From IMG/VR virus record IMGVR_UViG_3300028829_005240, positions 1 through 23,291 of that record: a DNA stretch of 23,291 nt. One strand, given 5' to 3'. Below the pieces are notes generated by a model, which was given only the letters and a program-made list of their open reading frames with translations, was not told the DNA's origin and did not search any database. The translations under genes and the position numbers were made by a program. Origin of the DNA: a virus. How positions within the stretch are numbered: position 1 is the stretch's first letter; every line of letters starts with the position of its first letter. Below are positions 4,276-23,291 of this stretch, in pieces.

Positions 4276-4830
4276 ATGAAAGATTGGATACAAGAAGAAG
4301 ACGATAAATATAGCTGGCTATACGAAAATGGATATCCAATAGGAAATCCAATGAGGATAGTTAATAAATATGGCCTTTTAAAAGAACAAAGCTGTATAGA
4401 TCTCGGTTGCGGTAGAGCCTCTTTAAGTAAATATTTCATATCCTATACTGGTGTTGATGTTTCAAAATACATAATAGAGCATAATAAGAAAGCTAGGTCT
4501 GGCGACTATTTCCACGGATCTTTGGATAAACTTAGCGATATTAGATTTAATCGTAGCAATTTTGATATAGCTATATGTTCAGATGTCATGGAGCATATAC
4601 CAGAAACTGAAGTAAGTAATGTCTTGCGCGCTATTTCTAATTTAGACGCCAAAGCCTTTTATTTTGCCATATCAACAAGAAAATCAGTTCTACTAGATAA
4701 AGAAAATAAAAACTTACACCTTTCCGTTTTTTCAAGTGATAAATGGGCTTCTCTGATATCTGAATTTTTGTCTATAGACCATGAAGAAAAATCCCCTACG
4801 CTTTATACGATTAAATGCACTGGGAGATAA
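4276..4830 (+). CDS. Class I SAM-dependent methyltransferase
   Basis: A Rossmann-fold methyltransferase of 184 residues. Motif I is DLGCGRASL (42-50), the acidic ribose-binding residue is D61 in TGVDVS, and motif IV is FDIAICSDVMEHIP (96-109), typical of small-molecule or sugar methyltransferases rather than DNA methylases (no NPPY or PC motif). It starts 3 bases after the small terminase stop with a poor ribosome site, so it is probably coupled. The next three genes are a sialyltransferase-like enzyme, a cupin and GDP-mannose dehydratase, which suggests that it methylates a sugar or glycan. The substrate cannot be deduced. Confidence 0.8.
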   Translation: MKDWIQEEDDKYSWLYENGYPIGNPMRIVNKYGLLKEQSCIDLGCGRASLSKYFISYTGVDVSKYIIEHNKKARSGDYFHGSLDKLSDIRFNRSNFDIAICSDVMEHIPETEVSNVLRAISNLDAKAFYFAISTRKSVLLDKENKNLHLSVFSSDKWASLISEFLSIDHEEKSPTLYTIKCTGR

Positions 4831-4836
4831 ATAATT

Positions 4837-5349
4837 ATGATTATAATAGTTGGAAACGGAACATCTATATTAGATAAAAAAAATGGAAAACTGATAGATT
4901 CGTTTGATGAGGTTGTTAGATTCAACAGTTTTAGAATAAAGGGCTACGAGGAGTATACAGGAGAAAAAACTACGACTTGGTTCACATGTAACTCTCACCA
5001 CATAAAAGAGATAAATTCTTTCAAGAGTGTTTATGTTCATACTTGGGAGTGGGACAAAAATAAATGTCAACTATTCAAATCATTTCATAAGGTTAGAGAC
5101 GATTGTATTAAAACAGACAGGGGGTTCGTCAGATCAAGTATTCCATTGTCAACTCCTAGTACGGGCTTGATAGCTATATATATGATCTTACAAAATTTTC
5201 CAAAAGTAACAATTACTGGATTTGACTGGTGGGACAGAGAAGATCATCATTATGCAGATAAGCAAATAAGAGGAACCTTACATAAACCAAAAGAAGAATT
5301 AGAATTCATTAAAAAACTTATTGATTCTGATAGGGTTGAATTCTTATGA
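4837..5349 (+). CDS. GT29 family (sialyltransferase-like) glycosyltransferase
   Basis: A 170-residue protein showing the compact GT29 pattern: a GNGTSIL loop at 6-12, FDEVVRFNSF at 23-32, GYEEYTGEKTTTWF, then PLSTPSTGLIAI (103-114) corresponding to the S-motif, TGFDWW near 128-132, and H149-x4-E154 (HKPKEE) matching the HxxxxE very-small motif. Known GT29 enzymes transfer sialic acid from CMP-sugar, but short bacterial and viral relatives may use other donors. It has no signal or membrane segment, so it acts in the host cytoplasm. GGAGAT lies upstream of ATG 4837. Its stop overlaps the next ATG (ATGA). Confidence 0.75.
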   Translation: MIIIVGNGTSILDKKNGKLIDSFDEVVRFNSFRIKGYEEYTGEKTTTWFTCNSHHIKEINSFKSVYVHTWEWDKNKCQLFKSFHKVRDDCIKTDRGFVRSSIPLSTPSTGLIAIYMILQNFPKVTITGFDWWDREDHHYADKQIRGTLHKPKEELEFIKKLIDSDRVEFL

Positions 5350-5705
5350 ATAAACAAGGCAAAATATGGGGTCAAACTGTAGAATTATTCAGTAAAAACA
5401 ATGTTTCTATAAATAGACTAGAAACCAAAAAAAACAGTTGCTGTTCAAAACACTACCATGAACATAAGTATAATACTTTTTTTGTTGAGACAGGCAAGGT
5501 GCTAATACAGGAATGGAAAAACGATTACAACTTAATTGACGAAACAACTTTAAAGTCTGGAGAAAAATGCTTAATACCACCTAAAAATTATCACAGATTC
5601 ATAAGCCTTGAAGACAGCGTTGTGTATGAGATATACCATGTTGAACTTTTAAATGAAGACATTATAAGAGAAGACACTGGACAGGAAACTTTTAAAGAGG
5701 AATAA
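5346..5705 (+). CDS. Single-domain cupin
   Basis: A 119-residue single cupin barrel. Cupin motif 1 is HYHEHKYNTFFVETG (36-50) with metal-ligand candidates H36, H38, H40 and E48; motif 2 is LIPPKNYHRF (76-85) with H83. The pattern resembles the C-terminal cupin of type II phosphomannose isomerases, which would fit the dehydratase next door that consumes GDP-mannose, but a single cupin could also be a sugar epimerase, isomerase or binding protein. It is translationally coupled to the upstream glycosyltransferase (ATGA overlap) and ends one base before the next start; its 3' end supplies the AGAGGA ribosome site of the dehydratase. Confidence 0.75.
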   Translation: MNKQGKIWGQTVELFSKNNVSINRLETKKNSCCSKHYHEHKYNTFFVETGKVLIQEWKNDYNLIDETTLKSGEKCLIPPKNYHRFISLEDSVVYEIYHVELLNEDIIREDTGQETFKEE

Positions 5706-5706
5706 A

Positions 5707-6810
5707 ATGAAAGCTATTATCACAGGAATTACAGGTCAAGACGGCAGTCACTTAGCGGACCTTTTGCTTGAAAAGGGTTACGATGTAGTAGGTGTTTCAA
5801 GAAGGAGCAGCACAGACAATACAGATAGAATTAAACATATTCTTGATCACGAACGATTCAGTTTGGCTCAGGGTGATATAACTGACGCACATTCAATCAT
5901 TAATATATTCAAAGCACACGAAGACGTAAATGAAATTTATAATCTAGCCGCCCAAAGTCACGTCGCTGTATCATTTAATCAGCCGGGCTTGACTTGGGAT
6001 ATAACTGGTAAGGGGTGCTTAAATATACTACAGAGCATAAAAGACCTAGAAATGATAAACGCTAGATTCTACCAAGCCAGTAGTAGTGAAATGTTTGGTA
6101 GCAATTACGATACAAGAACAAGAGATGGAGACTTTGATAACAAGTTGCCCATTGAGAAATTCCAAAACGAAGAAACAAAATTCCTTCCCCAATCCCCTTA
6201 TGCTATTTCTAAATGCGCCGCTCACTATATGACAAGGCTCTACAGGGAAGGGTACGGTCTACATGCTAGCGCAGGTATATTGTTCAACCATGAAGGACCA
6301 AGACGTGGTGAGAATTTTGTAACTAGAAAGATTACTAAATGGATTGGTAATTTTATTAAATGGTGTGCCACCAACGACGTATCGCCAATAGAATTATCTA
6401 ATTTAGTAATTGATGACGATGAGATATATATTTCTGGAAGAAAAGATAAATCACAAGGTTTACAATTTCCTAAACTAAGACTTGGTAATCTAGAGGCGTA
6501 TAGAGACTGGGGATTTGCTGGCGACTATTGCGAAGCTATGTGGCTAATGCTACAAAAAGATTGTCCAGACGACTATGTAATTTGCACCGGAGAAACTCAC
6601 ACGGTCACAGAATTTCTACAGATAGCTTTTGGATGTGTTGGCATAAACGAGTGGTCTAACTTCGTTGTCGTAGACCCAGAGTTCTACAGGCCAGCAGAAG
6701 TAGATTATCTAAGAGGTGATTGCTCAAAAGCAAAAGAGAAACTTGAATGGAAACCCAAACACTCATTTGAAGATCTAGTAAAGATGATGGTCATGAGTGA
6801 TTTAGCATGA
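5707..6810 (+). CDS. gmd: GDP-mannose 4,6-dehydratase
   Basis: Converts GDP-D-mannose to GDP-4-keto-6-deoxy-D-mannose, the entry step to GDP-fucose, GDP-rhamnose and related sugars. It is a short-chain dehydrogenase-type protein of 367 residues. The NADP-binding loop GITGQDGSH lies at 7-15, the catalytic SSSE segment at 125-128, and Y165/K169 form the YxxxK pair (YAISK). The diagnostic stretch FNHEGPRRGENFVTRKIT is at 193-210. Compared with cellular enzymes it has about 12 extra residues at 134-155 and about 30 extra at 220-256. RBS AGAGGA precedes ATG 5707. No reductase or epimerase that would finish the sugar is in this window. Its stop overlaps the next start by 4 bases. Confidence 0.92.
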   Translation: MKAIITGITGQDGSHLADLLLEKGYDVVGVSRRSSTDNTDRIKHILDHERFSLAQGDITDAHSIINIFKAHEDVNEIYNLAAQSHVAVSFNQPGLTWDITGKGCLNILQSIKDLEMINARFYQASSSEMFGSNYDTRTRDGDFDNKLPIEKFQNEETKFLPQSPYAISKCAAHYMTRLYREGYGLHASAGILFNHEGPRRGENFVTRKITKWIGNFIKWCATNDVSPIELSNLVIDDDEIYISGRKDKSQGLQFPKLRLGNLEAYRDWGFAGDYCEAMWLMLQKDCPDDYVICTGETHTVTEFLQIAFGCVGINEWSNFVVVDPEFYRPAEVDYLRGDCSKAKEKLEWKPKHSFEDLVKMMVMSDLA

Positions 6811-7568: not shown

Positions 7569-8183
7569 ATGACAGCAAATCGCGACACTGTTGGCGAAAT
7601 TCACGCATACAACTTGGATGTTAAAAACAGAGAGATATATATTAATGAATTTGACGACTCTGGAGATACGGGCGGTGTTGATCACCGCATGTTACAGAAC
7701 TTTACTAAAAATATAAATATATTAAAAAATACAAATAGAGACCCGATAACTATACATATGCAGACAGTCGGAGGTTGTTGGTACTCTGGAATGGGTATAT
7801 ACGACGCTATTAAATGTTGCAAGTGTAAAACAACGTTTATAGGGTATGGTCAATTATGTTCTATGGGTACTATTATCATACAGGCTGCATCAAGAAGGAT
7901 AGTTACAGAAAACTCAACATTTATGGTTCACTGGGGTAGCAGCGAAATAACCGGCCATTATCTTAGTGCGCAGAATCTCGCTGCTTTTGAAAAAGGGGCT
8001 GGAGATAAAATGTTAAGCATCTACGCTGAAAAATGTCATAAAACTGGAAAGTATTTTAAAGACCGTGGGGATAGCTTGTCAAAAACTAAAGCATACATAA
8101 AAAGAAAACTAAACAATGGCGATTGGTACATGGAAGCTGCTGAAGCTGTTTACTATGGTTTCGCTGACGGAATATACAAATGA
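7569..8183 (+). CDS. ClpP-like serine protease
   Basis: A 204-residue protein with the complete ClpP catalytic set by pattern: nucleophile S98 in GQLCSMGT (compare GQAASMG in ClpP), H121 in FMVHWGSS, and D185 in NNGDWYMEAAEAVYYGFAD, which aligns with the segment around the catalytic Asp of ClpP. The GGCWYSGMGIYDAI stretch (68-81) matches the oxyanion region. ClpP-like proteins serve as prohead proteases in many phages, and the position before the large terminase suits this. However, the gene at 12207 encodes another probable prohead protease, so its target is unclear. GGAG precedes ATG 7569 and the stop overlaps the terminase start (ATGA). Confidence 0.85.
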   Translation: MTANRDTVGEIHAYNLDVKNREIYINEFDDSGDTGGVDHRMLQNFTKNINILKNTNRDPITIHMQTVGGCWYSGMGIYDAIKCCKCKTTFIGYGQLCSMGTIIIQAASRRIVTENSTFMVHWGSSEITGHYLSAQNLAAFEKGAGDKMLSIYAEKCHKTGKYFKDRGDSLSKTKAYIKRKLNNGDWYMEAAEAVYYGFADGIYK

Positions 8184-10171
8184 ATGAATTAAAAAATATA
8201 GATGAAGCTTGGTTAAATCTTGACGATATAAAAAAAGAAGATTTAATAAATCCCTTTGAAATGGTTAGCTTCAAAGATGAAGATTACCACCTAAGATTAA
8301 TATGGCTAATGACAAGGCCAGAATATTTCTCTTTTCTTTGCAAGCACGTATTTAATATTAATATATTACCATCTCAAGCGTTATTTTTATGCGAGATGTG
8401 GAATAGAAAATTCCCAATGCTTATAGCTAGTCGTGGTTTTGGTAAATCATTTATTCTATCTCTATATTCTATGATTCGCGCTTTAATTCTACCAGATAGA
8501 AAAGTAGTGGTTGTAGGTGCTGCATTTAGACAATCTAAGGTGTTGTTTGAGTACATGGAGACAATTTGGAACAACGCACCAATTTTAAGGAGTATGTGTG
8601 ATGCGAATAGTGGACCACGTAGGGATGTGGACCGTTGTGTTATGCGGATTAATAAATCCCGTATTACTTGTCTTCCTTTGGGAGACGGGCAGAAGATTAG
8701 AGGTCAGCGTGCTAACGATATTATATCTGATGAGTTTGCATCAATCCCGCGAGATATATTTGAGACAGTTGTCGCTGGTTTCGCTGCGGTTAGTTCAGAT
8801 CCCATTGAGAATGTTAAGAGGATTGCTGCAAAGAAAAGAGCCGCCGAACTTGGAATAGAAATAGAAGAATCTACAGAGGACATAATAGAAAAGAAAGACA
8901 ATCAAATTATACTAAGTGGTACTGCCTATTATGACTTTAATCACTTTGCCGACTACTGGAAAAAATGGAAAGCTATAATAAAAAGCCAAGGTAAGCAAAA
9001 TAGACTCAGAGACATATTTGGTGAAGATCCACCAAAAGACTTTAATTGGAAAGACTACTCCATAATACGTATTCCATATGAACTTTTACCAGAAGGCTTT
9101 ATGGACGCCTCGCAGGTCGCCAGATCGAAGGCTACAGTTCATGCTGGTATATATCAAATGGAGTTTGGCGCGTGCTTCACGCGCGATTCTCAGGGCTTTT
9201 TTAAGAGAACGCTAATTGAGCAGTGCGTAGCAAACGAACAGACAGATGAAACAAAGGCCATCTTAGACATAAACAAAAACCCTATAGTGTTTGAAGCAAA
9301 GTTAATGGGTGACAAAGATAAGAAATATGTCTTTGGCATTGACCCAGCTTCTGAGGTTGACAACTTTAGTATTGTAGTATTAGAATTACATAACGGACAT
9401 AGAAAAATAGTTCACTGCTGGACTACCAACAGAGGTGAACATAAAGAAAAAGTTAAAAGAGGATATTCTAAAGAGACTGATTTTTATGGATATTGCGTTA
9501 GGAAAATTAGAGATTTGATGAAATTATTTCCGTGTTATCACATAGCACTTGATGCTCAAGGTGGTGGCATAGCCGTAATGGAGGGTTTACATGACAAGGA
9601 TAAAATACAAGATGGAGAACTTCCAATATGGCCTGTTATAGTTGACGATAAACCTAAAGACACAGACGGCGAGCAGGGATTACATTTATTAGAAATGTGT
9701 CAGTTTGCAAAACACGAATGGTTGGCAGAAGCCAATCATGGAATGAGGAAAGACTTTGAAGACAGAGCGTTGCTCTTTCCAAGGTTTGACTCTGTTAGCT
9801 TGGGTATATCTAGCGCAGAAGACGCTATGACGGGTAGACTGTTCGACACCTTGGAGCAATGTGTCATGGAGATAGAAGAGCTAAAAGACGAATTAGCTAT
9901 GATCCAGATGACGCAAACCGCTTCGGGTAGAGATAAATGGGATACCCCAGAAAGTGTTGTCGGAACCGGAAAAAAGGGCAAACAGAGAAAGGATAGGTAT
10001 TCTTCTCTTTTAATGGCTAATATGGCAGCTAGAATTATAGACAGGACACCTGAACAAGCAGAGTATAATTTTTACGGAGGTTTCGCTACAAGTTCTAAAT
10101 CCAAGAAAAAAGAAAAAGATTTATACATTGGGCCTAGTTGGTTTACAAATTCTATGAAAGATGTCTATTAA
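8180..10171 (+). CDS. Terminase large subunit
   Basis: ATP-driven DNA packaging motor with nuclease, 663 residues. The ATPase domain has Walker A ASRGFGKS at 83-90 and Walker B IISDE at 181-185. The C-terminal RNase H-like nuclease has D388 in VFGIDPASE and D458 in IALDAQGGG as metal ligands. At 663 residues it is large for the family; part of the extra length is a charged insertion between ATPase and nuclease (about 205-240). The gene begins at an ATGA overlap with the ClpP-like gene. A GTGTATA motif follows directly after the stop, so the portal gene probably has its own promoter. Confidence 0.95.
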   Translation: MNELKNIDEAWLNLDDIKKEDLINPFEMVSFKDEDYHLRLIWLMTRPEYFSFLCKHVFNINILPSQALFLCEMWNRKFPMLIASRGFGKSFILSLYSMIRALILPDRKVVVVGAAFRQSKVLFEYMETIWNNAPILRSMCDANSGPRRDVDRCVMRINKSRITCLPLGDGQKIRGQRANDIISDEFASIPRDIFETVVAGFAAVSSDPIENVKRIAAKKRAAELGIEIEESTEDIIEKKDNQIILSGTAYYDFNHFADYWKKWKAIIKSQGKQNRLRDIFGEDPPKDFNWKDYSIIRIPYELLPEGFMDASQVARSKATVHAGIYQMEFGACFTRDSQGFFKRTLIEQCVANEQTDETKAILDINKNPIVFEAKLMGDKDKKYVFGIDPASEVDNFSIVVLELHNGHRKIVHCWTTNRGEHKEKVKRGYSKETDFYGYCVRKIRDLMKLFPCYHIALDAQGGGIAVMEGLHDKDKIQDGELPIWPVIVDDKPKDTDGEQGLHLLEMCQFAKHEWLAEANHGMRKDFEDRALLFPRFDSVSLGISSAEDAMTGRLFDTLEQCVMEIEELKDELAMIQMTQTASGRDKWDTPESVVGTGKKGKQRKDRYSSLLMANMAARIIDRTPEQAEYNFYGGFATSSKSKKKEKDLYIGPSWFTNSMKDVY

Positions 10172-14164: not shown

Positions 14165-15172
14165 ATGTCATATAAAGAAAGACCAAGTGAAGAGTTTATC
14201 ACATTGCTTCGCCGCTCTGGTGATAATGATCAAAATGTAGCTTTTGCTGCCCAAAGAGAGTTTGCACAAGCTTTGGAACTTCCTCTGCGCAAGGGCGTTT
14301 TGGTTGGTAATATTCTCGGTAATATTTTCGAGACTATTCAAGTCGAGCCGGGTGGAAGCACTGAGTATCCATTGGATCTTATCAGTCCGGGACTTGAGGG
14401 TGAGCATGTCGCTTACACCAACCCCGGTCATGGTCGCGTTCCTGAGAGATCAGTCGAAGGCGATTACGTAATGATCCCAACCTACAGCATTACATCAAGT
14501 ATTGATTACTTGCTTCGTTTTGCTCGCGAGGCTCGTTGGGACATTGTTGGTCGCGCTATGCAAGTTTTAGAGGCCGGATTCGTCAAAAAGATGAATGATG
14601 ACGGATGGCACACTCTGCTTGCTGCTGGTGTTGATCGTAACATTTTGGTTTATGACGGTGATGCAACCGCTGGCATGTTCTCCAAGAGACTTGTTAGCTT
14701 GCTTCAAACTGTTATGCGTCGTAACGCTGGTGGTAACACTGGCTCTGGAAATCGCGGTCGATTGACCGACTTGTACGTTTCACCAGAAGCACTTGAAGAT
14801 GTTCGCAACTGGGGATTTGATCAGATCTCTGACGCAACCAGAACTGCTATCTACAATGCGGGTGGCGACGGCGCTCCAATCACTAATGTGTTCGGAGTTA
14901 GCCTACACGATCTAGATGAACTTGGAGAAGGTCAGGAATATCAAGATTTCTTCACCGGTTCACTTGGTGGTAGCGTTGCTGGTGGCGATACTGAATTGGT
15001 AGTTGGTCTCGACCAAGGCGCTAACGACAGCTTTGTTATGCCAATGAAGCAAGCTGTTCAAGTCTTTGAAGATCCTACCCTTCACAGACAGCAAAGAGCA
15101 GGCTACTACGGGTTCGCTGAACTCGGCTTTGGCGTTCTTGATAACAGAAGAATCCTCTTGGGTTCATTCTAA
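14165..15172 (+). CDS. Major capsid protein
   Basis: A 335-residue HK97-fold type capsid protein, judged by length, position and composition. It shows an N-terminal helix and loop, a conserved central segment (IPTYSITSSIDYLLRFAREARWDIVGRAM region, about 102-132), a DLYVSPEALEDVRNW helix near 201-215, and a C-terminal QRAGYYGFAELGFGVLDNRRI strand that is typical of phage capsids. There is no long N-terminal delta region, consistent with a separately encoded scaffold. Ribosome site AAAGGAGAT precedes ATG 14165. Codons are C- and G-richer than in most of the window. A rho-independent terminator follows 27 bases after the stop. Confidence 0.9.
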   Translation: MSYKERPSEEFITLLRRSGDNDQNVAFAAQREFAQALELPLRKGVLVGNILGNIFETIQVEPGGSTEYPLDLISPGLEGEHVAYTNPGHGRVPERSVEGDYVMIPTYSITSSIDYLLRFAREARWDIVGRAMQVLEAGFVKKMNDDGWHTLLAAGVDRNILVYDGDATAGMFSKRLVSLLQTVMRRNAGGNTGSGNRGRLTDLYVSPEALEDVRNWGFDQISDATRTAIYNAGGDGAPITNVFGVSLHDLDELGEGQEYQDFFTGSLGGSVAGGDTELVVGLDQGANDSFVMPMKQAVQVFEDPTLHRQQRAGYYGFAELGFGVLDNRRILLGSF

Positions 15173-15280: not shown

Positions 15281-15748
15281 ATGAGTACTGCTTTGTCGGA
15301 CTATCTAGAGTCTGGTTTATTACATCATATATTTAAAGGTCAGGATTTTCTAAAACCTGACGAAATAGCTATTGCGCTTTGTAGCGGCGTGCCAGTAGAT
15401 TCTGACACTGGTGAAACAATTCCTGAACTACCCAGTGGTGTTAACGGAAGCGGCACTGGTTATACTAGGATAAGTCTTGGAGACCCTTCTACTCAAGGCG
15501 ACACCGCTTGGATCTACGAGCAACAAGGTCATGATTACGGAAGTGGTCTTATTAAAAACTCAGGTTCTATAGTCTTTGAAAAAGCTCTTATAGACTGGGG
15601 TTTTGTTTCTGGGATAGCCATCACTGACGATTCTCAATATGGATCTGGTAATCTTTTGATGCACTCTGAGCTAAGTAACCCAAGAATCATTTACAAAGGT
15701 GACGCTGTAAAATTTGATGTAACAAATCTTAAAATTAAATTTAATTAA
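15281..15748 (+). CDS. Small virion-associated protein, tail-fibre-like family
   Basis: A 155-residue protein resembling a widespread phage family that begins with a LSDYLESGLLHHIF-type helix (5-18), continues with a DEIAIALCSGVP strand carrying short acidic loops, has GYTRISLG in the middle, and ends with FEKALIDWGFVSGIAITDD, then a GSGNLLMHSEL turn and a short strand (DVTNLKIKF). Members are found near neck, decoration and fibre genes; their exact position in the virion is unsettled. Ribosome site AGGAG precedes ATG 15281 and a new promoter-like motif lies 45 bases upstream. Followed after 9 bases by the YadA-like fibre gene. Confidence 0.65.
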   Translation: MSTALSDYLESGLLHHIFKGQDFLKPDEIAIALCSGVPVDSDTGETIPELPSGVNGSGTGYTRISLGDPSTQGDTAWIYEQQGHDYGSGLIKNSGSIVFEKALIDWGFVSGIAITDDSQYGSGNLLMHSELSNPRIIYKGDAVKFDVTNLKIKFN

Positions 15749-15757
15749 GGTAGGGCT

Positions 15758-16894
15758 ATGGCCGAGTATTCAGAAAATGACTTTATCCTATCATTAGACA
15801 ATTACCTTCCTGATAACTCTACCCAACAGATATCCCCTAAAGATATTAGAGATTCTCTCGTCAATTTAGTTGATTCTAGTCATAGGTTTCTAGAGATTCA
15901 CAGTATAAAAGCTGTGAACATTGAGTCTGATGATTTAAGACAAACTCGCGTTGGTGAGCTTTCGTTAGGTAAATTATATCTACCTTACGAGTCAGGTGAA
16001 GATAATAGCGCATTTGGTTACGCATCTTTACACGGTAACGTTTTTGGACACGGAAACACATCGGCTGGATCTTACTCCCTTTCATGTAATTTAGATGGCG
16101 ATTTTAATGTAGCTGTTGGATTTTCATCTTTAATAGGTAATGTAGACGGAGAAGGAAATGTTGCGGTTGGAACAAAAAGTTTATACCACGGAAGAAAAGG
16201 TAGCTATAATATAGCGATAGGTCATGGGGCTGGATACTACACTAACAACAATGACAGCTATCAATTTTATTTAGGTTCTCACCCAGAGGTGTCTGGATCT
16301 TGCTGTTTTGATGGTTCTGGTACACCTCTTCTTCGTGGTGATTTGCAAGAGCTAAAACTTGCGATTGGAACTAACGAAATCCATAACTATGGGACTCTTC
16401 AGGTTTCTGGAGATGCTTCACCAACAACAACTAGAGTTTCACATCTTGGAAATGACAACAGGGCTTGGAGATCAGTAAATGGTCAATTAATATTTCCAAA
16501 TTCTGACACGGTTGAGTCTAAATCAAATATAATACCATGCTATGACGGTCTTGATCTTGGAACTCCTGATCTTAGGTGGGATGGTTTTTTCAGAGACGTT
16601 GAAGTGTATGGAGACTTGACGGTTAACGGCGAAACTGTTTGTCCGTCTGGTTCTGGTTTACAGAGGTTTGCTGAAGGTTTCTTTATTGAAGACATATCCA
16701 CACCCTCTTCTTTCTGTAGTCCTACCTCTGGGTTGTTTAGGGAAAAAAGGACGTGCGATGGCGTATGTGAAGATGGCGATACTTTTTATGCTATAAACAG
16801 GGATGAATTTTTACAGATATCAAGCGGTGTCTATGGTCAAGTAGCGAGACATGGAACTGAATGGAGGCCGATTTGGGTTAGCTGTAACGTTTAG
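15758..16894 (+). CDS. Fibre protein with YadA-like head repeats
   Basis: A 378-residue virion fibre. The N-terminus carries ISPKDIRDSLVNLVDSS (25-41), a short element common at the start of phage fibre proteins. Residues 83-160 are a left-handed beta-roll repeat of NxAxGxxSL type (NSAFGYASLHG, FNVAVGFSSLIG, NVAVGTKSLYHG, YNIAIGHGAG), the pattern of trimeric YadA head domains, which form a trimeric shaft. The rest is beta-rich and ends with a Cys-containing region (CSPTSGLF, then TCDGVCEDGD) and FLQISSGVYGQVARHG near the C-terminus. The cysteines are unusual for a shaft and could bind metal or cross-link. AAGG precedes ATG 15758. Confidence 0.75.
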   Translation: MAEYSENDFILSLDNYLPDNSTQQISPKDIRDSLVNLVDSSHRFLEIHSIKAVNIESDDLRQTRVGELSLGKLYLPYESGEDNSAFGYASLHGNVFGHGNTSAGSYSLSCNLDGDFNVAVGFSSLIGNVDGEGNVAVGTKSLYHGRKGSYNIAIGHGAGYYTNNNDSYQFYLGSHPEVSGSCCFDGSGTPLLRGDLQELKLAIGTNEIHNYGTLQVSGDASPTTTRVSHLGNDNRAWRSVNGQLIFPNSDTVESKSNIIPCYDGLDLGTPDLRWDGFFRDVEVYGDLTVNGETVCPSGSGLQRFAEGFFIEDISTPSSFCSPTSGLFREKRTCDGVCEDGDTFYAINRDEFLQISSGVYGQVARHGTEWRPIWVSCNV

Positions 16895-16917: not shown

Positions 16918-17967
16918 ATGAGGAAAATAACCATAGGAATGGCGCACCATTCGGACTTTCACGGTGCTTACTTTAGTATTCAAGATATAATTAAAGAGTT
17001 AAGATTTAATAAAAGGGAAGATTTACTAGATAGACTTGAATTTATAGTTATTGAAAACGCAAAAGATAACGAACACGCACAAGCTGTTAAAAACCTACAA
17101 TGTGGAACTGGACTTGGTGGAAAATTTAGAGTTATAGATTTTCCAGACTCTCAAGGGACTTCCGCTACTAGGAATAAAATTATTGAAGAAGCAAAAACTG
17201 ATTTTGTTCTTGTTATGGATTGTCATGTTCTATTATGCCCAGTTGTACAAACTTTAGATAAATTATTTGAATTTATAGATAGATATCCAAACACAAAACA
17301 TTTATATCAAGGTCCACTGGTCTATGATAACTTAACTATGATTTCCACTCATTTCAATAATGAATGGGATGGACAAATGTGGGGTAGATGGGGTGCAGCT
17401 TGGACCTGTAGGTGCAAAAATAAAAACTTCAGTGTAATAAACGAAGATGACAAATGTAAATTTGTTGAACTTGAGAAGCAGAATCAGATTAACTATTGCG
17501 ACCATTGTTTTACAATTTTTCCGCAACAAGTAAATTTTCCCGGACATGAAAGCTTACTTAATAAAATTGGGTTTTCAAAACTTGGGTTTGATAAAAATGA
17601 GAGTGAGTTTGAAATATTTTCACAAGGGCTTGGATTGTTTTTTACGTCGAAAAAATCTTGGCTTGGATTCAACGAACATTGTAGAGGTTTTGGTGGAGAG
17701 GAGTGTTATATACATGAAAAATACAGGAAAGCTGGCAGAAAAGCATTATGTTTACCATTTTTAAAGTGGTTACATAGGTTTGCTAGACCAGACGGTGTTA
17801 AGTATGAACTAACAATAGAAAATAAGGTTAGAAATTACGTTTTAGAGTTTAGCGAACTTAAACTTGACTTACACCCTGTATATGAATATTTTGTAAAAAA
17901 ATTAAATTTTAATGAAGATAGTTACAATAAATTTCTAGAAGAATCAAAACAAATATACGGTAATTAA
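16918..17967 (+). CDS. GT27-like glycosyltransferase (polypeptide GalNAc-transferase-type motifs)
   Basis: A 349-residue GT-A fold glycosyltransferase. After an N-terminal nucleotide-binding half it has GTSATRNKIIEEAKTDFVLVMDCH (80-103); the DCH at 101-103 matches the DxH metal motif of animal polypeptide GalNAc-transferases rather than the usual DxD. Residues 249-273 (LGFNEHCRGFGGEECYIHEKYRKAG) match the Gal/GalNAc-T motif (GGEN/ExxxS.R.W..GG), and H286 in KWLHRF sits where those enzymes have a third metal ligand. An insert carries C164, C166, C180 and C194xxC197, possibly a zinc site. It has no signal or membrane segment and no lectin domain. Its stop is one base before the ATG of the mucin-like gene. 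Other GT2-like sugars are possible. Confidence 0.7.
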   Translation: MRKITIGMAHHSDFHGAYFSIQDIIKELRFNKREDLLDRLEFIVIENAKDNEHAQAVKNLQCGTGLGGKFRVIDFPDSQGTSATRNKIIEEAKTDFVLVMDCHVLLCPVVQTLDKLFEFIDRYPNTKHLYQGPLVYDNLTMISTHFNNEWDGQMWGRWGAAWTCRCKNKNFSVINEDDKCKFVELEKQNQINYCDHCFTIFPQQVNFPGHESLLNKIGFSKLGFDKNESEFEIFSQGLGLFFTSKKSWLGFNEHCRGFGGEECYIHEKYRKAGRKALCLPFLKWLHRFARPDGVKYELTIENKVRNYVLEFSELKLDLHPVYEYFVKKLNFNEDSYNKFLEESKQIYGN

Positions 17968-17968
17968 A

Positions 17969-19069
17969 ATGGGTAGACCTTCTACTTGTGGTTGTCCATG
18001 CCCAACGACAACTACTACAACTACAACGACTACGACGGAAGCCCCGGTGTACTCTTGTCGTATTTGTGCCGGTAGCGCTCTTGAGCCATTTTCTCAATCT
18101 TACCATTGTATTGACGGTGAAGATATAACGCAAGAGGAGTGCGAACTTATTGAAGGTTTCTGGGTTCCGTTCGCTTGTGATAACCAAGTTCTAGCGGGTG
18201 TCGGTCCTAATTGTCCAGCATTATGTAGAACATCATATGAATACGGTCTTCTGTTTAATGAAGATGCGCCCCTTCCCGGTCCTAGTAATGCATTTAGGGA
18301 CGAGGTTATGACTGAACATAATGGTTCATGGCTCCTATCTTCATTTCTCGGTGGTACTTTTACATCCAACAACTTTAATAGCGATAACTGCAACCCTACC
18401 GGTGACAGCGCCGGAGGTAGTTTAAGATATTCTTTTAACTTAACCAAAGGTTCTACCATTAGTATTCAAATGGAAGCCTCTGCCTCAGTTGGACAAAAGG
18501 TTTCGCAATTCTTTGTTATACCTCAACTTGGAGTTTCTCAAGGCGTGGGTTTGGGCGGTCCAAATTGCTCTTGCGAATGTCCATCAAAAAATATAAATAC
18601 TTACAGACGAACTTTCAATTATTCTATTGAAGATGAAGGTTGTTATAGCATTTTTACCGGAGGGTCAATAGAAGGAGTGGATAATTCTTTCACTGTTAGA
18701 ATAGGGGTTAATGGAACCTTTAGTGGCGATTCTGACGGTACGAATATAGTAGAAACCTGTAGACCTTGCGATACAACAACCACCACGACGCCGTCTCCAG
18801 CTACAACCACCACAACCGTAGCTCCAACCACTACTACCACGACCGTAGCTCCAACCACTACTACCACGACCGCAGCTCCAACCACTACTACCACGACCGC
18901 AGCTCCAACCACTACTACCACGACCGCAGCTCCAACCACTACTACCACAACCGTAGCTCCAACCACTACGACGCCGTCTCCAGCTACAACCACCACGACC
19001 GCAGCTCCAACCACCACAACTACAACAGAAAATCCCATACCTGACGGTGGTGGTGGCCCTTCCCCTTAA
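17969..19069 (+). CDS. Mucin-like protein with Thr-rich tracts and Cys-rich core
   Basis: A 366-residue protein. The N-terminus MGRPSTCGCPCP is followed by eleven consecutive threonines (13-23) and EAP. The core (27-268) is Cys-rich (for example C30, C33, C47, C58, C70, C82, C86, C200, C202, C204, C264, C267) with beta-like stretches. The C-terminus (269-353) is almost only Thr, Pro, Ala and Val in repeats such as VAPTTTTTT, ending in ENPIPDGGGGPSP. This is the composition of O-glycosylated mucin stalks, and the GT27-like gene ends one base upstream. No signal peptide is present, so modification would occur in the host cytoplasm. It has no clear ribosome site, so it is probably coupled to that gene. 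Function as a decorated virion spike or surface protein is inference. Confidence 0.75.
   Translation: MGRPSTCGCPCPTTTTTTTTTTTEAPVYSCRICAGSALEPFSQSYHCIDGEDITQEECELIEGFWVPFACDNQVLAGVGPNCPALCRTSYEYGLLFNEDAPLPGPSNAFRDEVMTEHNGSWLLSSFLGGTFTSNNFNSDNCNPTGDSAGGSLRYSFNLTKGSTISIQMEASASVGQKVSQFFVIPQLGVSQGVGLGGPNCSCECPSKNINTYRRTFNYSIEDEGCYSIFTGGSIEGVDNSFTVRIGVNGTFSGDSDGTNIVETCRPCDTTTTTTPSPATTTTTVAPTTTTTTVAPTTTTTTAAPTTTTTTAAPTTTTTTAAPTTTTTTVAPTTTTPSPATTTTTAAPTTTTTTENPIPDGGGGPSP
18818..19027 (+). repeat. In-frame 27-bp tandem repeats encoding a Thr-Pro-Ala stalk
   Basis: Five head-to-tail 27-bp units at 18818-18952 start GTAGCTCCAACC or GCAGCTCCAACC and differ at only one or two bases (Val/Ala codon and one silent change). 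They are followed by a longer degenerate copy (from 18953) and a last unit at 19001-19027. The segment ACGCCGTCTCCAGCTACAAC occurs at both 18788 and 18969, flanking the array. All units keep the frame, so copy number can change without frameshift. The N-terminal Thr tract (18005-18037) mixes all four Thr codons and is not a simple DNA repeat. Confidence 0.9.
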
Positions 19070-19147: not shown

Positions 19148-22100
19148 ATGGCACTAATTATAGCAGACAGAGTAAAGGAAACCACTATTACTAGTGGTAG
19201 CGGAAGGATTACTCTCAGTGGAGCTACATTTGGTGGATTTCAAACCTTTTCTGACGCAATAGGTGACGGAAATACAACCTACTATTGTATACAAAATTTT
19301 GATAAATTTGAGATTGGTCTTGGAGTATACAGGTCTAGTGATAACACTCTGAGTAGAGACACTGTACTGCAAAGTTCAAATTCTGACAACCTAATTAGTC
19401 TTACAGGGGCTAGCGTTGTATTCTGTGTAATTCCGGCAGACAAGTCGTTATACATAAATGAATCAGGTGATGCAGAGCTTCCAGTGCCTTTAACACTAAA
19501 AAGGTCAGACAGTGGCGATTATTGGCAAACGTTCTCTACAGACCATAGCAATAGAGTTGCCTCCTTTTATATACATGAGAGTGCTGACCCCACTTGGAAA
19601 ATCGGCCTTAAAACAACGTCTTCTGACATGGTGGCGCCATACTATGCTTATGTTTCTGCTAAAGATGGCTTTGTTGAATTAAGAGGTAATTCTTCTTCTA
19701 TTTTAAGTATAGGTGATGGCAATTCTGAAGGTTTGCAAGTAAACCATCAATTTAAAAATGTTATAGATATTAGAAAGAATGGCGGTGAAATTGCTATTCA
19801 GAACTTAGATTTGAACTCAGATGAAACGACAACTGCTAAAAACACATCTATAGCATATACCGTTTTTTCTGTTGAGTCTAGCGCAAGCCATGCTGCCGAT
19901 CTTCAAACTTGGAGTGTGACAACTGACGAAAAAGCTTCTTTAAATCAGTACGGTGACTTTGAAACAGTCGGTAACGTTATTTCTCCAAGTGGTAAATTTT
20001 CGGCGGTTAGGTTTAACGATACTTCTATTCAGACAACCGCTGGATTACCCTACGGTAGCGGAAGTTTAATAGATCAAAACACACAAAATATAGTCACTAA
20101 CAGTGGTTACTTTCAATCCTATATAGACAGTAGAGATGTTGCGATTAGCGGTTGGACTGAGGGTTATATAGATCAGACTAGTGGTAATTTACAATTTGAA
20201 ATATCTCAAGTTTCTTCTGATTTGTCTTCAACGTCTGGTTATTTTGAATCAAGAGTAGACCAGCTAGATTCTGATGTTTCTTACGTTTCTGGAATTGCCG
20301 TCTTTGCTTCTGGTCACAATTTACAGTCTGTCACAGATAATGGTAGCGTTACTACGAATGCTATAACTGTAAATAATAATATCACGGCTAGTAGTGGTTT
20401 ATTTGATTCTTTAGATATGACCCCTATTGCGGAAGCTAATTATCCTCCTCATCAAGAGGGTGTTCTTTTTTATGATAATGAAAACCATACATTAAGTTTA
20501 TATAATGACGAAGCAGATGTAACTCTACAGCTTGGTCAAGAGGAATTCCTAAGAGTTAGAAATAATACGGGCGCAACTATCGAGAACGGAACTGCCGTTC
20601 TTATTAATGGCGCACATGGAAATGCTGCACCCACTATCTCAGGCGCGATTGCTAATTCAGAATCTTCCTCTCAGGTTGTTGGTCTTGCTACACATAGTAT
20701 TGAGAATAATTCTTTTGGCTATGTTACAACCTATGGTATCGTTAGGGACATAGATACCTCTAGCTTCTCTGCTGGCGATGAAATATTCTTATCTGCAACA
20801 GAAGTTGGTAGTGGTGTAAATGTTTCTCCCGTGATTCCTAATTACAAGGTTACTATTGGTCACGTAATAAGAAGTCATTCCAATGGTTCCGTCTTGGTTC
20901 AAGTCGGACATCCAAAATTAGGTGGTGGCGATTTAAAGTCAGAATCAGTACTTAATCTTAGTGGTGTGCCGTTTGTTAGTCAAATTGCCGACACTACCGC
21001 AGGCGGATCGCTTACAGATTCATTATTTGTATTTGATAGTGGTAATCGTCAACTACAACTTGGTAGTGGTTTACAGCTTCTAGATGGTCAACCCTCCAAC
21101 ACAACTAATGTTTTATATAATGATGGCGGAGACCTATATTTTAACGGATCTGAAATTGGTGTAAGTGGTGAAAGTCTTGACTTTGCTGGCAATATACTTA
21201 CATACAATAATAGCAAGGGTGGTAGTTTTACCGCTGACCTTTCTAGTCTATCTACTTTTGACACCAGTGGTGTAAGTCTAGGTTACTCTGCTGGTACATT
21301 AACATATACTAATAATGCTGGTGGAAGTTTTGATGTAGATCTTTCAAGTATAAGTGGTGATGTTTACGCTATGATTGTAGATGGCGCACCCACAACTCTT
21401 GACACGCTTAATGAGATTGCGGCGGCTTTAAACGATGACGCTAACTTGGCAAACACTCTAACTAATTTAATATCTACAACTAGCGGTAATCTACAAACGC
21501 AGATTACAAGCAATGATGGTGATATAGCAACAGTTTCGGGTATAGCAGCTAAAACATTTACAGTTACAGCAAGTAGTTCAACCAATTATACCTTTGACGG
21601 AATGGGGCTGAATAGCGCTTCTGATCCAACTATTTACTTACACAAAGGTCATACTTACTATTTTGACAAACAAACATCTAGTCATCCACTTAGAATATCC
21701 GCTAGTGACGGTGGCTCAGTTTATCAAGACGCAGATGGTAATAATGTAGAAATTACTGGACAGGGCATATTAACATTTGAAGTTCCTCAGAATGCCCCAG
21801 ACAAATTATACTACTATTGTACCTCTCATCCTTCTTCTATGAAGGGTCTTATTTACACAACTGCGGATGGTTCTTTATCTGGATACTTTGAATCTCGCGC
21901 AGACCAAGCCGACGCCGACATCTCAACGGTTTCTGGTTTACTTTACGACGACACTGCTATATCTGGTTATTTCGAGTCTAGATCGGACGAGTCTGACGCC
22001 AACAACTCCGTCGTGTCTGGGTTACTTTACAACTACTGGACGGTTTCTGATGGCGTCAACTCTGAGAACATACTAGCTAATCAACAGGTTACATTCAGCG

Positions 22101-23291
22101 GGGTTGGAGGAAGCGTTGTTTCTTACGACTCTAGTTCAAATACCGTTTCTATAAGCGGTTCATCAGATCCAACAGGTGTTGTCAGTGGTGTATCTTTCTT
22201 TGGCGATGACGGAATTTTAACTGGTAATAATACATTTACGTATGACGGTCAAGACATAAGAGTTAGTGGCGCTATATTTTCTAGCAACGCTACATTTAAC
22301 TCATTGTTAAATGTTAGTGGTGTTTCTACGTTTGGTGCAGGAGTAAAAACAAAGCTTAACAGTGAGTCAGATGGCGCAACTATAACCTTTGATATGGATC
22401 AGTCAAATACCCACAGTACAACTCTTGGTGGAAACAGAACTCTTGCTGTATCCAATGTTGATGCTGGACAAAAGTTCACAATAAGGTTAGCGCAAGACGG
22501 CACAGGTAATCGTGAAGTTAATTGGTGGAGTAATATAAACTGGATTATATCTAACAGCGGTGAACCTACACTTAATTCTGGTGTTAATGAGGTAGATTAC
22601 TTTGGTTTTCTTTGTACTAGCGGTGGATATTACGACGGATTCCACATGACAGAGTTAGCCGCAGGCGGCGGAGGCGGAGGCGGAGGAACTACTTACAATA
22701 TTGCTAGCGGCTTACCTTATGCTTCTGGAGAATACTATCTACAAGAGATAAATCAAAACGCAGCGGACATCGTGACGGTTTCTGGGTTGATTGGCACAGG
22801 AGGAGGAACCGGAAGCGGATTGCCATACGCCTCTGGAGATTATTATTTAAACAGTATAAATACGGTCTCTGGTTTAATTCCTAACAATACATTTAACATA
22901 ACTGGTGGTGATGGTAGTAATTACACAATAGATGGAATGGGTCTAAACAGCGCATCCGATCCAACGATGTATTTACACAAAGGGCATACCTATGTATTTA
23001 ATAAAACATTTTCTGGTCATCCATTTGCGGTTTCTGCTACTGATGGTGGTAGCGTCTATTCGGACGCTGACGGAACCAATATAGAAATTGGATCTTCTGC
23101 TGGATCTGTTGCTTTTGAAGTTCCACAAGATGCTCCAGACAAACTTTATTATTATTGTACTGCTCACCCATCTAACATGAAGGGTGTTATTTATACAACT
23201 ACGGATGGTTCTCTTTCAGGATACTTTGAGTCAAGGGTAGATACTAACGCCGCTGATATTATCACGGTTTCTGGTTTAACTGGCGGTGGAG
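19148..23291 (+). CDS. Giant modular tail fibre / virion adhesin, open at right edge
   Basis: An uninterrupted frame of at least 1,381 codons from ATG 19148 to the right edge. The N-terminus MALIIADRVKETTITSGSG with FQTFSDAIGDGNTTYY is a conserved phage virion domain. Further modules follow in order: heptad-like SGYFESRVDQ coiled-coil linkers; an EFLRVRNNTGATIENGTAVL module (about 20540-20910) common in phage fibres; beta-rich GGSF repeats; a helical TLDTLNEIAAALNDD segment; cupredoxin-like domain 1 (21551-21862); a second ESR linker pair; an ATITFDMDQSNTHSTTLGGNRTL beta domain (about 22370-22650); a run of eight glycines (22664-22687); and cupredoxin-like domain 2 (22892-23200) followed by another linker. 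The weak ribosome site (ACGGA) is offset by its own promoter-like motif. No receptor-binding tip is reached. Confidence 0.88.
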   Translation, partial: MALIIADRVKETTITSGSGRITLSGATFGGFQTFSDAIGDGNTTYYCIQNFDKFEIGLGVYRSSDNTLSRDTVLQSSNSDNLISLTGASVVFCVIPADKSLYINESGDAELPVPLTLKRSDSGDYWQTFSTDHSNRVASFYIHESADPTWKIGLKTTSSDMVAPYYAYVSAKDGFVELRGNSSSILSIGDGNSEGLQVNHQFKNVIDIRKNGGEIAIQNLDLNSDETTTAKNTSIAYTVFSVESSASHAADLQTWSVTTDEKASLNQYGDFETVGNVISPSGKFSAVRFNDTSIQTTAGLPYGSGSLIDQNTQNIVTNSGYFQSYIDSRDVAISGWTEGYIDQTSGNLQFEISQVSSDLSSTSGYFESRVDQLDSDVSYVSGIAVFASGHNLQSVTDNGSVTTNAITVNNNITASSGLFDSLDMTPIAEANYPPHQEGVLFYDNENHTLSLYNDEADVTLQLGQEEFLRVRNNTGATIENGTAVLINGAHGNAAPTISGAIANSESSSQVVGLATHSIENNSFGYVTTYGIVRDIDTSSFSAGDEIFLSATEVGSGVNVSPVIPNYKVTIGHVIRSHSNGSVLVQVGHPKLGGGDLKSESVLNLSGVPFVSQIADTTAGGSLTDSLFVFDSGNRQLQLGSGLQLLDGQPSNTTNVLYNDGGDLYFNGSEIGVSGESLDFAGNILTYNNSKGGSFTADLSSLSTFDTSGVSLGYSAGTLTYTNNAGGSFDVDLSSISGDVYAMIVDGAPTTLDTLNEIAAALNDDANLANTLTNLISTTSGNLQTQITSNDGDIATVSGIAAKTFTVTASSSTNYTFDGMGLNSASDPTIYLHKGHTYYFDKQTSSHPLRISASDGGSVYQDADGNNVEITGQGILTFEVPQNAPDKLYYYCTSHPSSMKGLIYTTADGSLSGYFESRADQADADISTVSGLLYDDTAISGYFESRSDESDANNSVVSGLLYNYWTVSDGVNSENILANQQVTFSGVGGSVVSYDSSSNTVSISGSSDPTGVVSGVSFFGDDGILTGNNTFTYDGQDIRVSGAIFSSNATFNSLLNVSGVSTFGAGVKTKLNSESDGATITFDMDQSNTHSTTLGGNRTLAVSNVDAGQKFTIRLAQDGTGNREVNWWSNINWIISNSGEPTLNSGVNEVDYFGFLCTSGGYYDGFHMTELAAGGGGGGGGTTYNIASGLPYASGEYYLQEINQNAADIVTVSGLIGTGGGTGSGLPYASGDYYLNSINTVSGLIPNNTFNITGGDGSNYTIDGMGLNSASDPTMYLHKGHTYVFNKTFSGHPFAVSATDGGSVYSDADGTNIEIGSSAGSVAFEVPQDAPDKLYYYCTAHPSNMKGVIYTTTDGSLSGYFESRVDTNAADIITVSGLTGGG
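21551..21862 (+). other. Cupredoxin-like domain 1 in the giant fibre
   Basis: About 104 residues from KTFTVTASSS to KGLIYTT. The end YYYCTSHPSSMKG has the C-x2-H-x3-M pattern of type I copper loops (as plastocyanin, azurin, amicyanin), and an earlier His in QTSSHPLRIS (near 21680) could be the fourth ligand, with the expected order His...Cys-His-Met. The YLHKGHTYYFD strand matches the start of the fold. Copper binding is plausible but unproven. Confidence 0.65.
22892..23200 (+). other. Cupredoxin-like domain 2 in the giant fibre (duplicate)
   Basis: This repeats domain 1 after 1,341 bases, with identical stretches such as GMGLNSASDPT, YLHKGHTY, PDKLYYYCT and the following DGSLSGYFESR linker. 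The ligand set is again His (SGHPF), C-x2-H-x3-M (CTAHPSNM). Differences lie mostly in loops (for example the residues around the first His), as in a duplication followed by divergence. Confidence 0.65.

Follow-up and report, generated by a model that had tools for sequence, protein, structure and literature searches.

Does a tailed phage encode, in two adjacent genes, both an enzyme for mucin-type protein O-glycosylation and the protein that this enzyme modifies? The question is raised by the window, i.e., the whole 23,291-base virus record analyzed here, a fragment of an uncultured tailed phage in which a glycosyltransferase gene is directly followed by a gene for a protein with long threonine tracts (Table 1). 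The original prediction that the transferase gene ends one base before the Thr gene agrees with the open reading frames, both of which lie on the same strand. Polypeptide GalNAc-transferases, which in animals initiate the sugar coats of mucins, constitute family GT27; they are retaining, use UDP-GalNAc as the donor and Ser/Thr as the acceptor, and usually, albeit not universally, carry a C-terminal ricin-type lectin domain.

Table 1. Features of the window (window positions) and, in the last rows, loci combining phrog_4417 with poly-Thr genes (positions within the respective loci).
Feature	Positions	Strand	Basis or comment
Terminase gene	8180-10171	+	
Portal-like gene	after terminase, before major-capsid-like gene	+	Gene order
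Major-capsid-like gene	14165-15172	+	Gene order
Head-fibre-like gene	15281-15748	+	
Tail-spike-like structural gene, upstream of transferase	15758-16894	+	PHROG virion/tail spike
GT-A glycosyltransferase, GT27-like fold, 349 aa, putative protein O-glycosyltransferase	16918-17967	+	Pfam, AlphaFold2, PDB folds
DxH metal-site motif D101-C-H103	17218-17226	+	D101, H103 invariant in 34 relatives
F258-GGEE...G273...P280...H286 block	17689-17775	+	Ungapped against GalNAc-T2 W331-GGEN...G346...P353...H359
Cys-containing poly-Thr protein, 366 aa, probable acceptor	17969-19069	+	Virion structural gene region
Thr11 run, residues 13-23	18005-18037	+	Mixed Thr codons
C-terminal Thr/Pro/Ala mucin-like tail, residues 269-353	18773-19027	+	
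Tail fibre / baseplate connector gene, runs off the window end	19148-23290	+	phrog_677, E 6.5e-36
phrog_4417 and poly-Thr, L408	3238-4852		
phrog_4417 and poly-Thr, L409	3348-4912		
phrog_4417 and poly-Thr, L410	2450-4879		
phrog_4417 and poly-Thr, L411	2238-3852		
phrog_4417 and poly-Thr, L412-L417			

The terminase is 23–26% identical to those of cultured phages among the matches listed. The portal-like and capsid-like genes, for which a PHROG search gave no match, are presumably what their names say, on the strength of gene order and general knowledge. The transferase gene lies within the virion structural module, with capsid-, head-fibre- and tail-spike-like genes before it and the tail fibre gene after it, and the Thr protein is a putative virion protein; since a tail fibre / baseplate connector gene is situated downstream, the pair is assigned to the tail module. 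The tail fibre protein contains two domain copies ending in YYYC(T)(S/A)HPS(S/N)MKG, which resembles a type I copper (cupredoxin) site; a Pfam search of these copies gave no match. Directly before the terminase gene, an open reading frame at 7569–8183 looks like a ClpP-like protease, as judged by its sequence. The window also contains a sugar cassette at 4276–6810, comprising a methyltransferase, a 170-aa GT29 (sialyltransferase)-like protein (PF00777, E 7e-18), a cupin, and a GDP-mannose 4,6-dehydratase. The GT29-like sialyltransferase was considered as a fixed partner of the pair and rejected: a GT29 match is found in 5 of 50 relatives' records, three of them above the family cut-off, and hence the cassette genes are no fixed part of the system.

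The catalytic motifs on which the original prediction relied, D101-C-H103, GGEE at residues 259–262, and H286, are all present in the transferase, and D101, H103, G259, G260, E261, E262, and H286 are invariant among 34 phage relatives. The DxH motif and the GGE-11-G-6-P-5-H block are nearly invariant in 61 bacterial relatives as well. In alignment A1, the block stands in exact register with G332...H359 of GalNAc-T2, with W331/F258, G332-G333-E334/G259-G260-E261, G346/G273, P353/P280, and H359/H286 aligned without a gap. Residues 331–362 of GalNAc-T2 were confirmed in PDB sequences; H359 is a known ligand of Mn.

The AlphaFold2 model of the transferase, built from 34 sequences, has a mean pLDDT of 93.5. 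All 50 matches listed in a Foldseek search against the PDB are polypeptide GalNAc-transferases (E 3.6e-13 to 2.5e-10), including T1, T2, T4, T7, T10, T12, TgT3, and PGANT9 from human, mouse, fly, and Toxoplasma. The comparison with GT27 and GT2 structures proposed as a check thus places the predicted fold closest to the polypeptide GalNAc-transferases and not to another GT2 clade. The TM-scores over the query are 0.48–0.59 among the matches listed, and values of 0.5–0.6 mean the same fold, not the same acceptor; the modeled fold supports a peptide acceptor.

Sequence searches are less specific. Pfam yields only the generic GT2 family (PF00535, E 9e-8), and NCBIfam gives only weak generic matches to exopolysaccharide and mycofactocin transferases. 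No PHROG profile matches the transferase at E ≤ 0.1, so that phrog_4417, discussed below, is unmatched too, and a tblastn search of the window transferase and two distant relatives against 50,697 INPHARED phage records found no relative. Membership in GT27 by sequence was rejected, as an hmmsearch of the A1 profile against PDB sequences returned no GT27 protein at E ≤ 10 and, of GT2, weak matches only. The claimed likeness to GalNAc-transferases therefore stands for the fold, the DxH and GGE motifs, and the register of H286, but not for the sequence profile, and because sequence profiles fail to reach GT27, we describe the enzyme as GT27-like and do not file it as a member of that family. With GT27 enzymes such as human GalNAc-T2 and Toxoplasma GalNAc-T3 it shares the GT-A fold, both motifs, and a histidine at the spacing of T2 H359, and it adjoins a protein of the Thr/Pro-rich type that GT27 enzymes accept. 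Unlike them, it has no profile match to GT27, has F in place of the W of WGGEN, and belongs to a phage or bacterial family that is presumably cytoplasmic; nor is there a ricin-type (beta-trefoil) lectin domain, either in the 349-aa transferase by Pfam or in the listed families of its phage and bacterial relatives.

A single-sequence search identified 46 IMG/VR loci with relatives of the transferase, and a profile search identified at least 401 IMG/VR stretches and at least 97 bacterial stretches encoding them, of which 80 viral and 80 bacterial ones were retained. Pairing was scored as the maximum number of Thr in any 50 residues (Thr-rich being at least 18 in viruses and 15 in bacteria) over clusters of 60% identity with enough flank on both sides. 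A Thr-rich gene is immediately adjacent to the transferase gene in 19/23 viral clusters and lies within three genes in 21/23. Thr-rich stretches were observed in 21/55 immediate neighbors of viral clusters vs. 0/148 open reading frames at least four genes away (Fisher p = 4e-14). The Thr modules reside on the downstream gene, the upstream gene, or both, and the pairing still holds in relatives of about 35% identity, as it does in some bacteria. Among bacterial clusters, the excess of Thr-rich neighbors is weaker but real (7/59 neighbors vs. 3/230 distant open reading frames, p = 8e-4, at a threshold of 15 and with prophage loci unsorted). The pairing of transferase and Thr genes is real and conserved.

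The expectation that homologous transferases would have Thr-rich neighbors thus holds for most viral clusters and fails in one phage subclade (15 loci), where the transferase is in place and its neighbors have no Thr runs; most contigs with Thr runs, in turn, have no such enzyme. An unbiased search for Thr11 runs yielded at least 80 loci, and the window-type transferase was found, among the matches listed, in 3 of 80 contigs (at the +1 position in two of them), so poly-Thr is commoner than this enzyme. Pfam analysis of 58 other immediate neighbors of Thr-run genes revealed few further glycosyltransferases, and hence most Thr-run genes have no recognizable transferase directly beside them. Within the window's capsid clade, counted over relatives whose contigs continue for 2 kb or more downstream of the capsid gene, the association is weak: seven have the enzyme and a Thr gene, seven the enzyme only, 12 a Thr gene only, and 30 neither (p = 0.2). 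Of the 12 with a Thr gene only, 7 reach or approach a contig end and 3 lack mucin-like character.

The Thr protein itself has no match in Pfam, PHROG, or INPHARED (tblastn, 50,697 phage records) and is mosaic and fast-evolving; its alignable columns are mainly Thr, plus a few others. It contains 83 Thr encoded by ACC (32), ACT (22), ACG (15), and ACA (14). Both predicted Thr segments are there: the 11 consecutive Thr near the N-terminus and the C-terminal Thr/Pro/Ala repeats, with 56 Thr, 13 Pro, and 13 Ala in the 92 residues 265–356. The N-terminal run is encoded as ACG ACA ACT ACT ACA ACT ACA ACG ACT ACG ACG; with all four Thr codons mixed in this way, it is repetitive as a protein and not as DNA, which points to selection on the protein rather than slippage. 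The C-terminal region is a tandem repeat at the DNA level too, with PTTTTTT(A/V)A units. All 76 Thr runs examined in neighbors of the transferase use 2–4 codons, and 72 of them use 3–4, again indicative of selection on the protein. The tail-spike-like gene upstream of the transferase has no Thr tail in the window; its homologs in close relatives bear PTTTTTT modules as a tail or linker, and this structural protein is a possible second candidate acceptor in the sister phages.

The commonest neighbor of Thr-run genes is phrog_4417, a family of unknown function found at the +1 position in 8/57 loci. Its AlphaFold2 model (pLDDT 86) has a GT-A fold nearest to WbbM, UGGT, glycogenin, and GT6, and not to the GalNAc-transferases; it has DxD and GGAQ motifs, as against DxH and GGEE in the window transferase, and is absent from the A1-profile matches in the neighbor set. 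An assignment of the +1 gene of these other Thr-run phages to the methyltransferase domain of the fused enzymes described below was tried and rejected, as the domain profile did not match and the gene has a GT-A fold. More than 70 cultured phage records contain phrog_4417, and in all 11 of those examined, several of them mutually related, a Thr-rich stretch is present in a nearby protein. Examples are the tail end of orf13 of Lactococcus 1706 (Thr-rich, GVTTTTTTTTTTHHD), orf50 of bIL285, the major tail protein of Enterococcus phiFL1A, and, in Lactobacillus iLp84, a Thr-rich capsid protein plus a 34%-Thr protein; the example from Enterococcus 9183 is weak, its longest run being at most three Thr, and the Thr tail is a few genes away from phrog_4417 in this phage, bIL285, and vipetofem. 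The ten phrog_4417 loci of Table 1 come from cultured phages of Lactococcus, Enterococcus, Lactobacillus, Staphylococcus, and others, with poly-Thr-tailed tail or capsid proteins beside or near the family. Like the window transferase, phrog_4417 is a gene of transferase fold in the head-tail module, beside or near poly-Thr-tailed proteins. It is thus a second GT-A family, unrelated to the window transferase and independently paired with poly-Thr virion proteins, and this convergence, seen in gene neighborhoods and models, offers the strongest argument that poly-Thr stretches of phage virion proteins serve as glycosylation acceptors.

Many distant phage relatives of the window transferase are fused to a C-terminal domain, in some of which Pfam recognizes similarity to sugar O-methyltransferases (Methyltransf_24, CmcI) and DUF6171, and bacterial relatives bear GT25, Hpr_kinase_C, PqqD, TPR, sulfotransferase, FucT_N, or methyltransferase domains. 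Such fusions would fit an enzyme that initiates or elaborates protein-linked glycans. Alignment A4 includes 13 consecutively numbered loci (L031–L043) and other fused relatives that combine the transferase, a sugar O-methyltransferase-like domain, and DUF6171; small Cys-rich DUF6171-like proteins are also localized near three other Thr-run genes (L213, L239, L262). At eight bacterial loci, small Thr-tailed proteins near the relatives have a leader-like start, RR...ILAG...W.KP...PAHAQT, and this pattern would suggest a distinct family of exported acceptor proteins. A PqqD-like (RiPP recognition element) domain was observed on Thr-tailed proteins, with a strong Pfam match in L164, a weak one in L178, and by resemblance only in L186; it occurs on the transferase itself in L151, and 8 of 61 bacterial members have PqqD, hinting at a possible leader-guided recognition.

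Two known systems are comparable. Some bacterial relatives bear TPR domains, as FlmG-type enzymes presumably do. PMC7591256 describes FlmG as a modular enzyme for O-glycosylation of flagellin in the bacterial cytoplasm. Glycosylation of phage virions has already been shown in a few mycobacteriophages: in Che8, Corndog, and Myrna, the phage's own transferases glycosylate proteins of the capsid and the tail tube (Freeman, 2023, cited in PMC12363180). The window resembles these systems in having a putative phage-encoded transferase for virion proteins; neither for the window enzyme nor for two distant members of its family did the INPHARED search give a relative. Glycosylation of poly-Thr in phages, or the poly-Thr pairing, is not reported in the open-access literature searched, which takes in only a minority of subscription papers and preprints.

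We conclude, with a probability of about 0.7, that the transferase is a soluble, metal-dependent GT-A protein O-glycosyltransferase that adds sugars to the poly-Thr/Pro stretches of the adjacent protein. It would bind a metal through D101, H103, and H286, together with a nucleotide sugar, and pass the sugar from this donor to hydroxyl groups of Thr within an extended Thr/Pro stretch of its neighbor, the peptide PTTTTTTAAPTTTTTT being a putative acceptor substrate. Transfer would occur in the cytoplasm of the infected cell, before virion assembly, and the product would be a virion surface protein with a stiff glycosylated segment of mucin-like character. The glycan may receive further sugars or methyl groups from partner enzymes, and the phage might benefit through protection, spacing, adhesion, or evasion. 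The sugar would most likely be GalNAc or GlcNAc.

A variant compatible with this explanation is that the enzyme is a protein O-glycosyltransferase of non-mucin chemistry, transferring, e.g., a hexose or a methylated deoxysugar that partners later extend or methylate. The sugar O-methyltransferase-like, GT25, FucT_N, and sulfotransferase domains fused to relatives, and the GDP-mannose 4,6-dehydratase and GT29-like genes of the window, are in its favor, whereas the proximity of the modeled fold to GalNAc-transferases weakly favors a HexNAc donor; we consider this variant a serious possibility, though one we would not expect to prevail. It is improbable that the enzyme glycosylates virion proteins mainly at sites other than the Thr runs and that these runs are unmodified flexible linkers, common in tail modules. 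Such a situation would be consistent with the wide occurrence of Thr runs in contigs without the window-type transferase and with the subclade having the transferase and no Thr runs, but it sits poorly with the absence of Thr-rich stretches from all 148 distant open reading frames of the same contigs, with the retention of pairing in some bacteria and among relatives of only about 35% identity, and with the independent placement of phrog_4417 beside Thr runs.

An ordinary GT2 enzyme that remodels the host surface polysaccharide or a lipid-linked sugar, causing seroconversion or superinfection exclusion, and that is in the tail module by chance, is less probable still. The Pfam assignment to GT2 only, the weak NCBIfam similarity to exopolysaccharide and mycofactocin transferases, and the sugar-metabolism genes at 4276–6810 could be read in this way; against it, all 50 PDB fold matches listed are peptide-acting GalNAc-transferases, and adjacency to Thr-rich genes is conserved. 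A trivial explanation, that the Thr repeats result from assembly or slippage and the pairing is a coincidence, could draw on the DNA-level repetition of the C-terminal region, but the mixed codons, the open frames, and the recurrence in dozens of independent contigs with differing repeat units rule it out for practical purposes.

The pairing of a GT27-like transferase with poly-Thr proteins in hundreds of viruses and some bacteria suggests that phages put mucin-like sugar chains on their own particles. On a broader view, which we advance tentatively and at somewhat less than even odds, there exists an unrecognized prokaryotic and viral mucin-type O-glycosylation, with a soluble GT27-like family in hundreds of uncultured phages and several bacterial phyla acting on dedicated poly-Thr/Pro acceptor modules; this system might be a bacterial or viral counterpart, or even the forerunner, of mucin glycosylation in animals, and two or more unrelated transferase families would have been recruited by phages to the same end. 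Should the proposed function of the pairing hold, virion glycosylation on encoded poly-Thr tags would be common in environmental phages, with at least two transferase families and with relatives in bacteria. It would explain many phage proteins whose Thr runs have had no explanation, would supply simple means of producing mucin-like glycoproteins in the bacterial cytoplasm, and would bear on the origin of mucin-type O-glycosylation.
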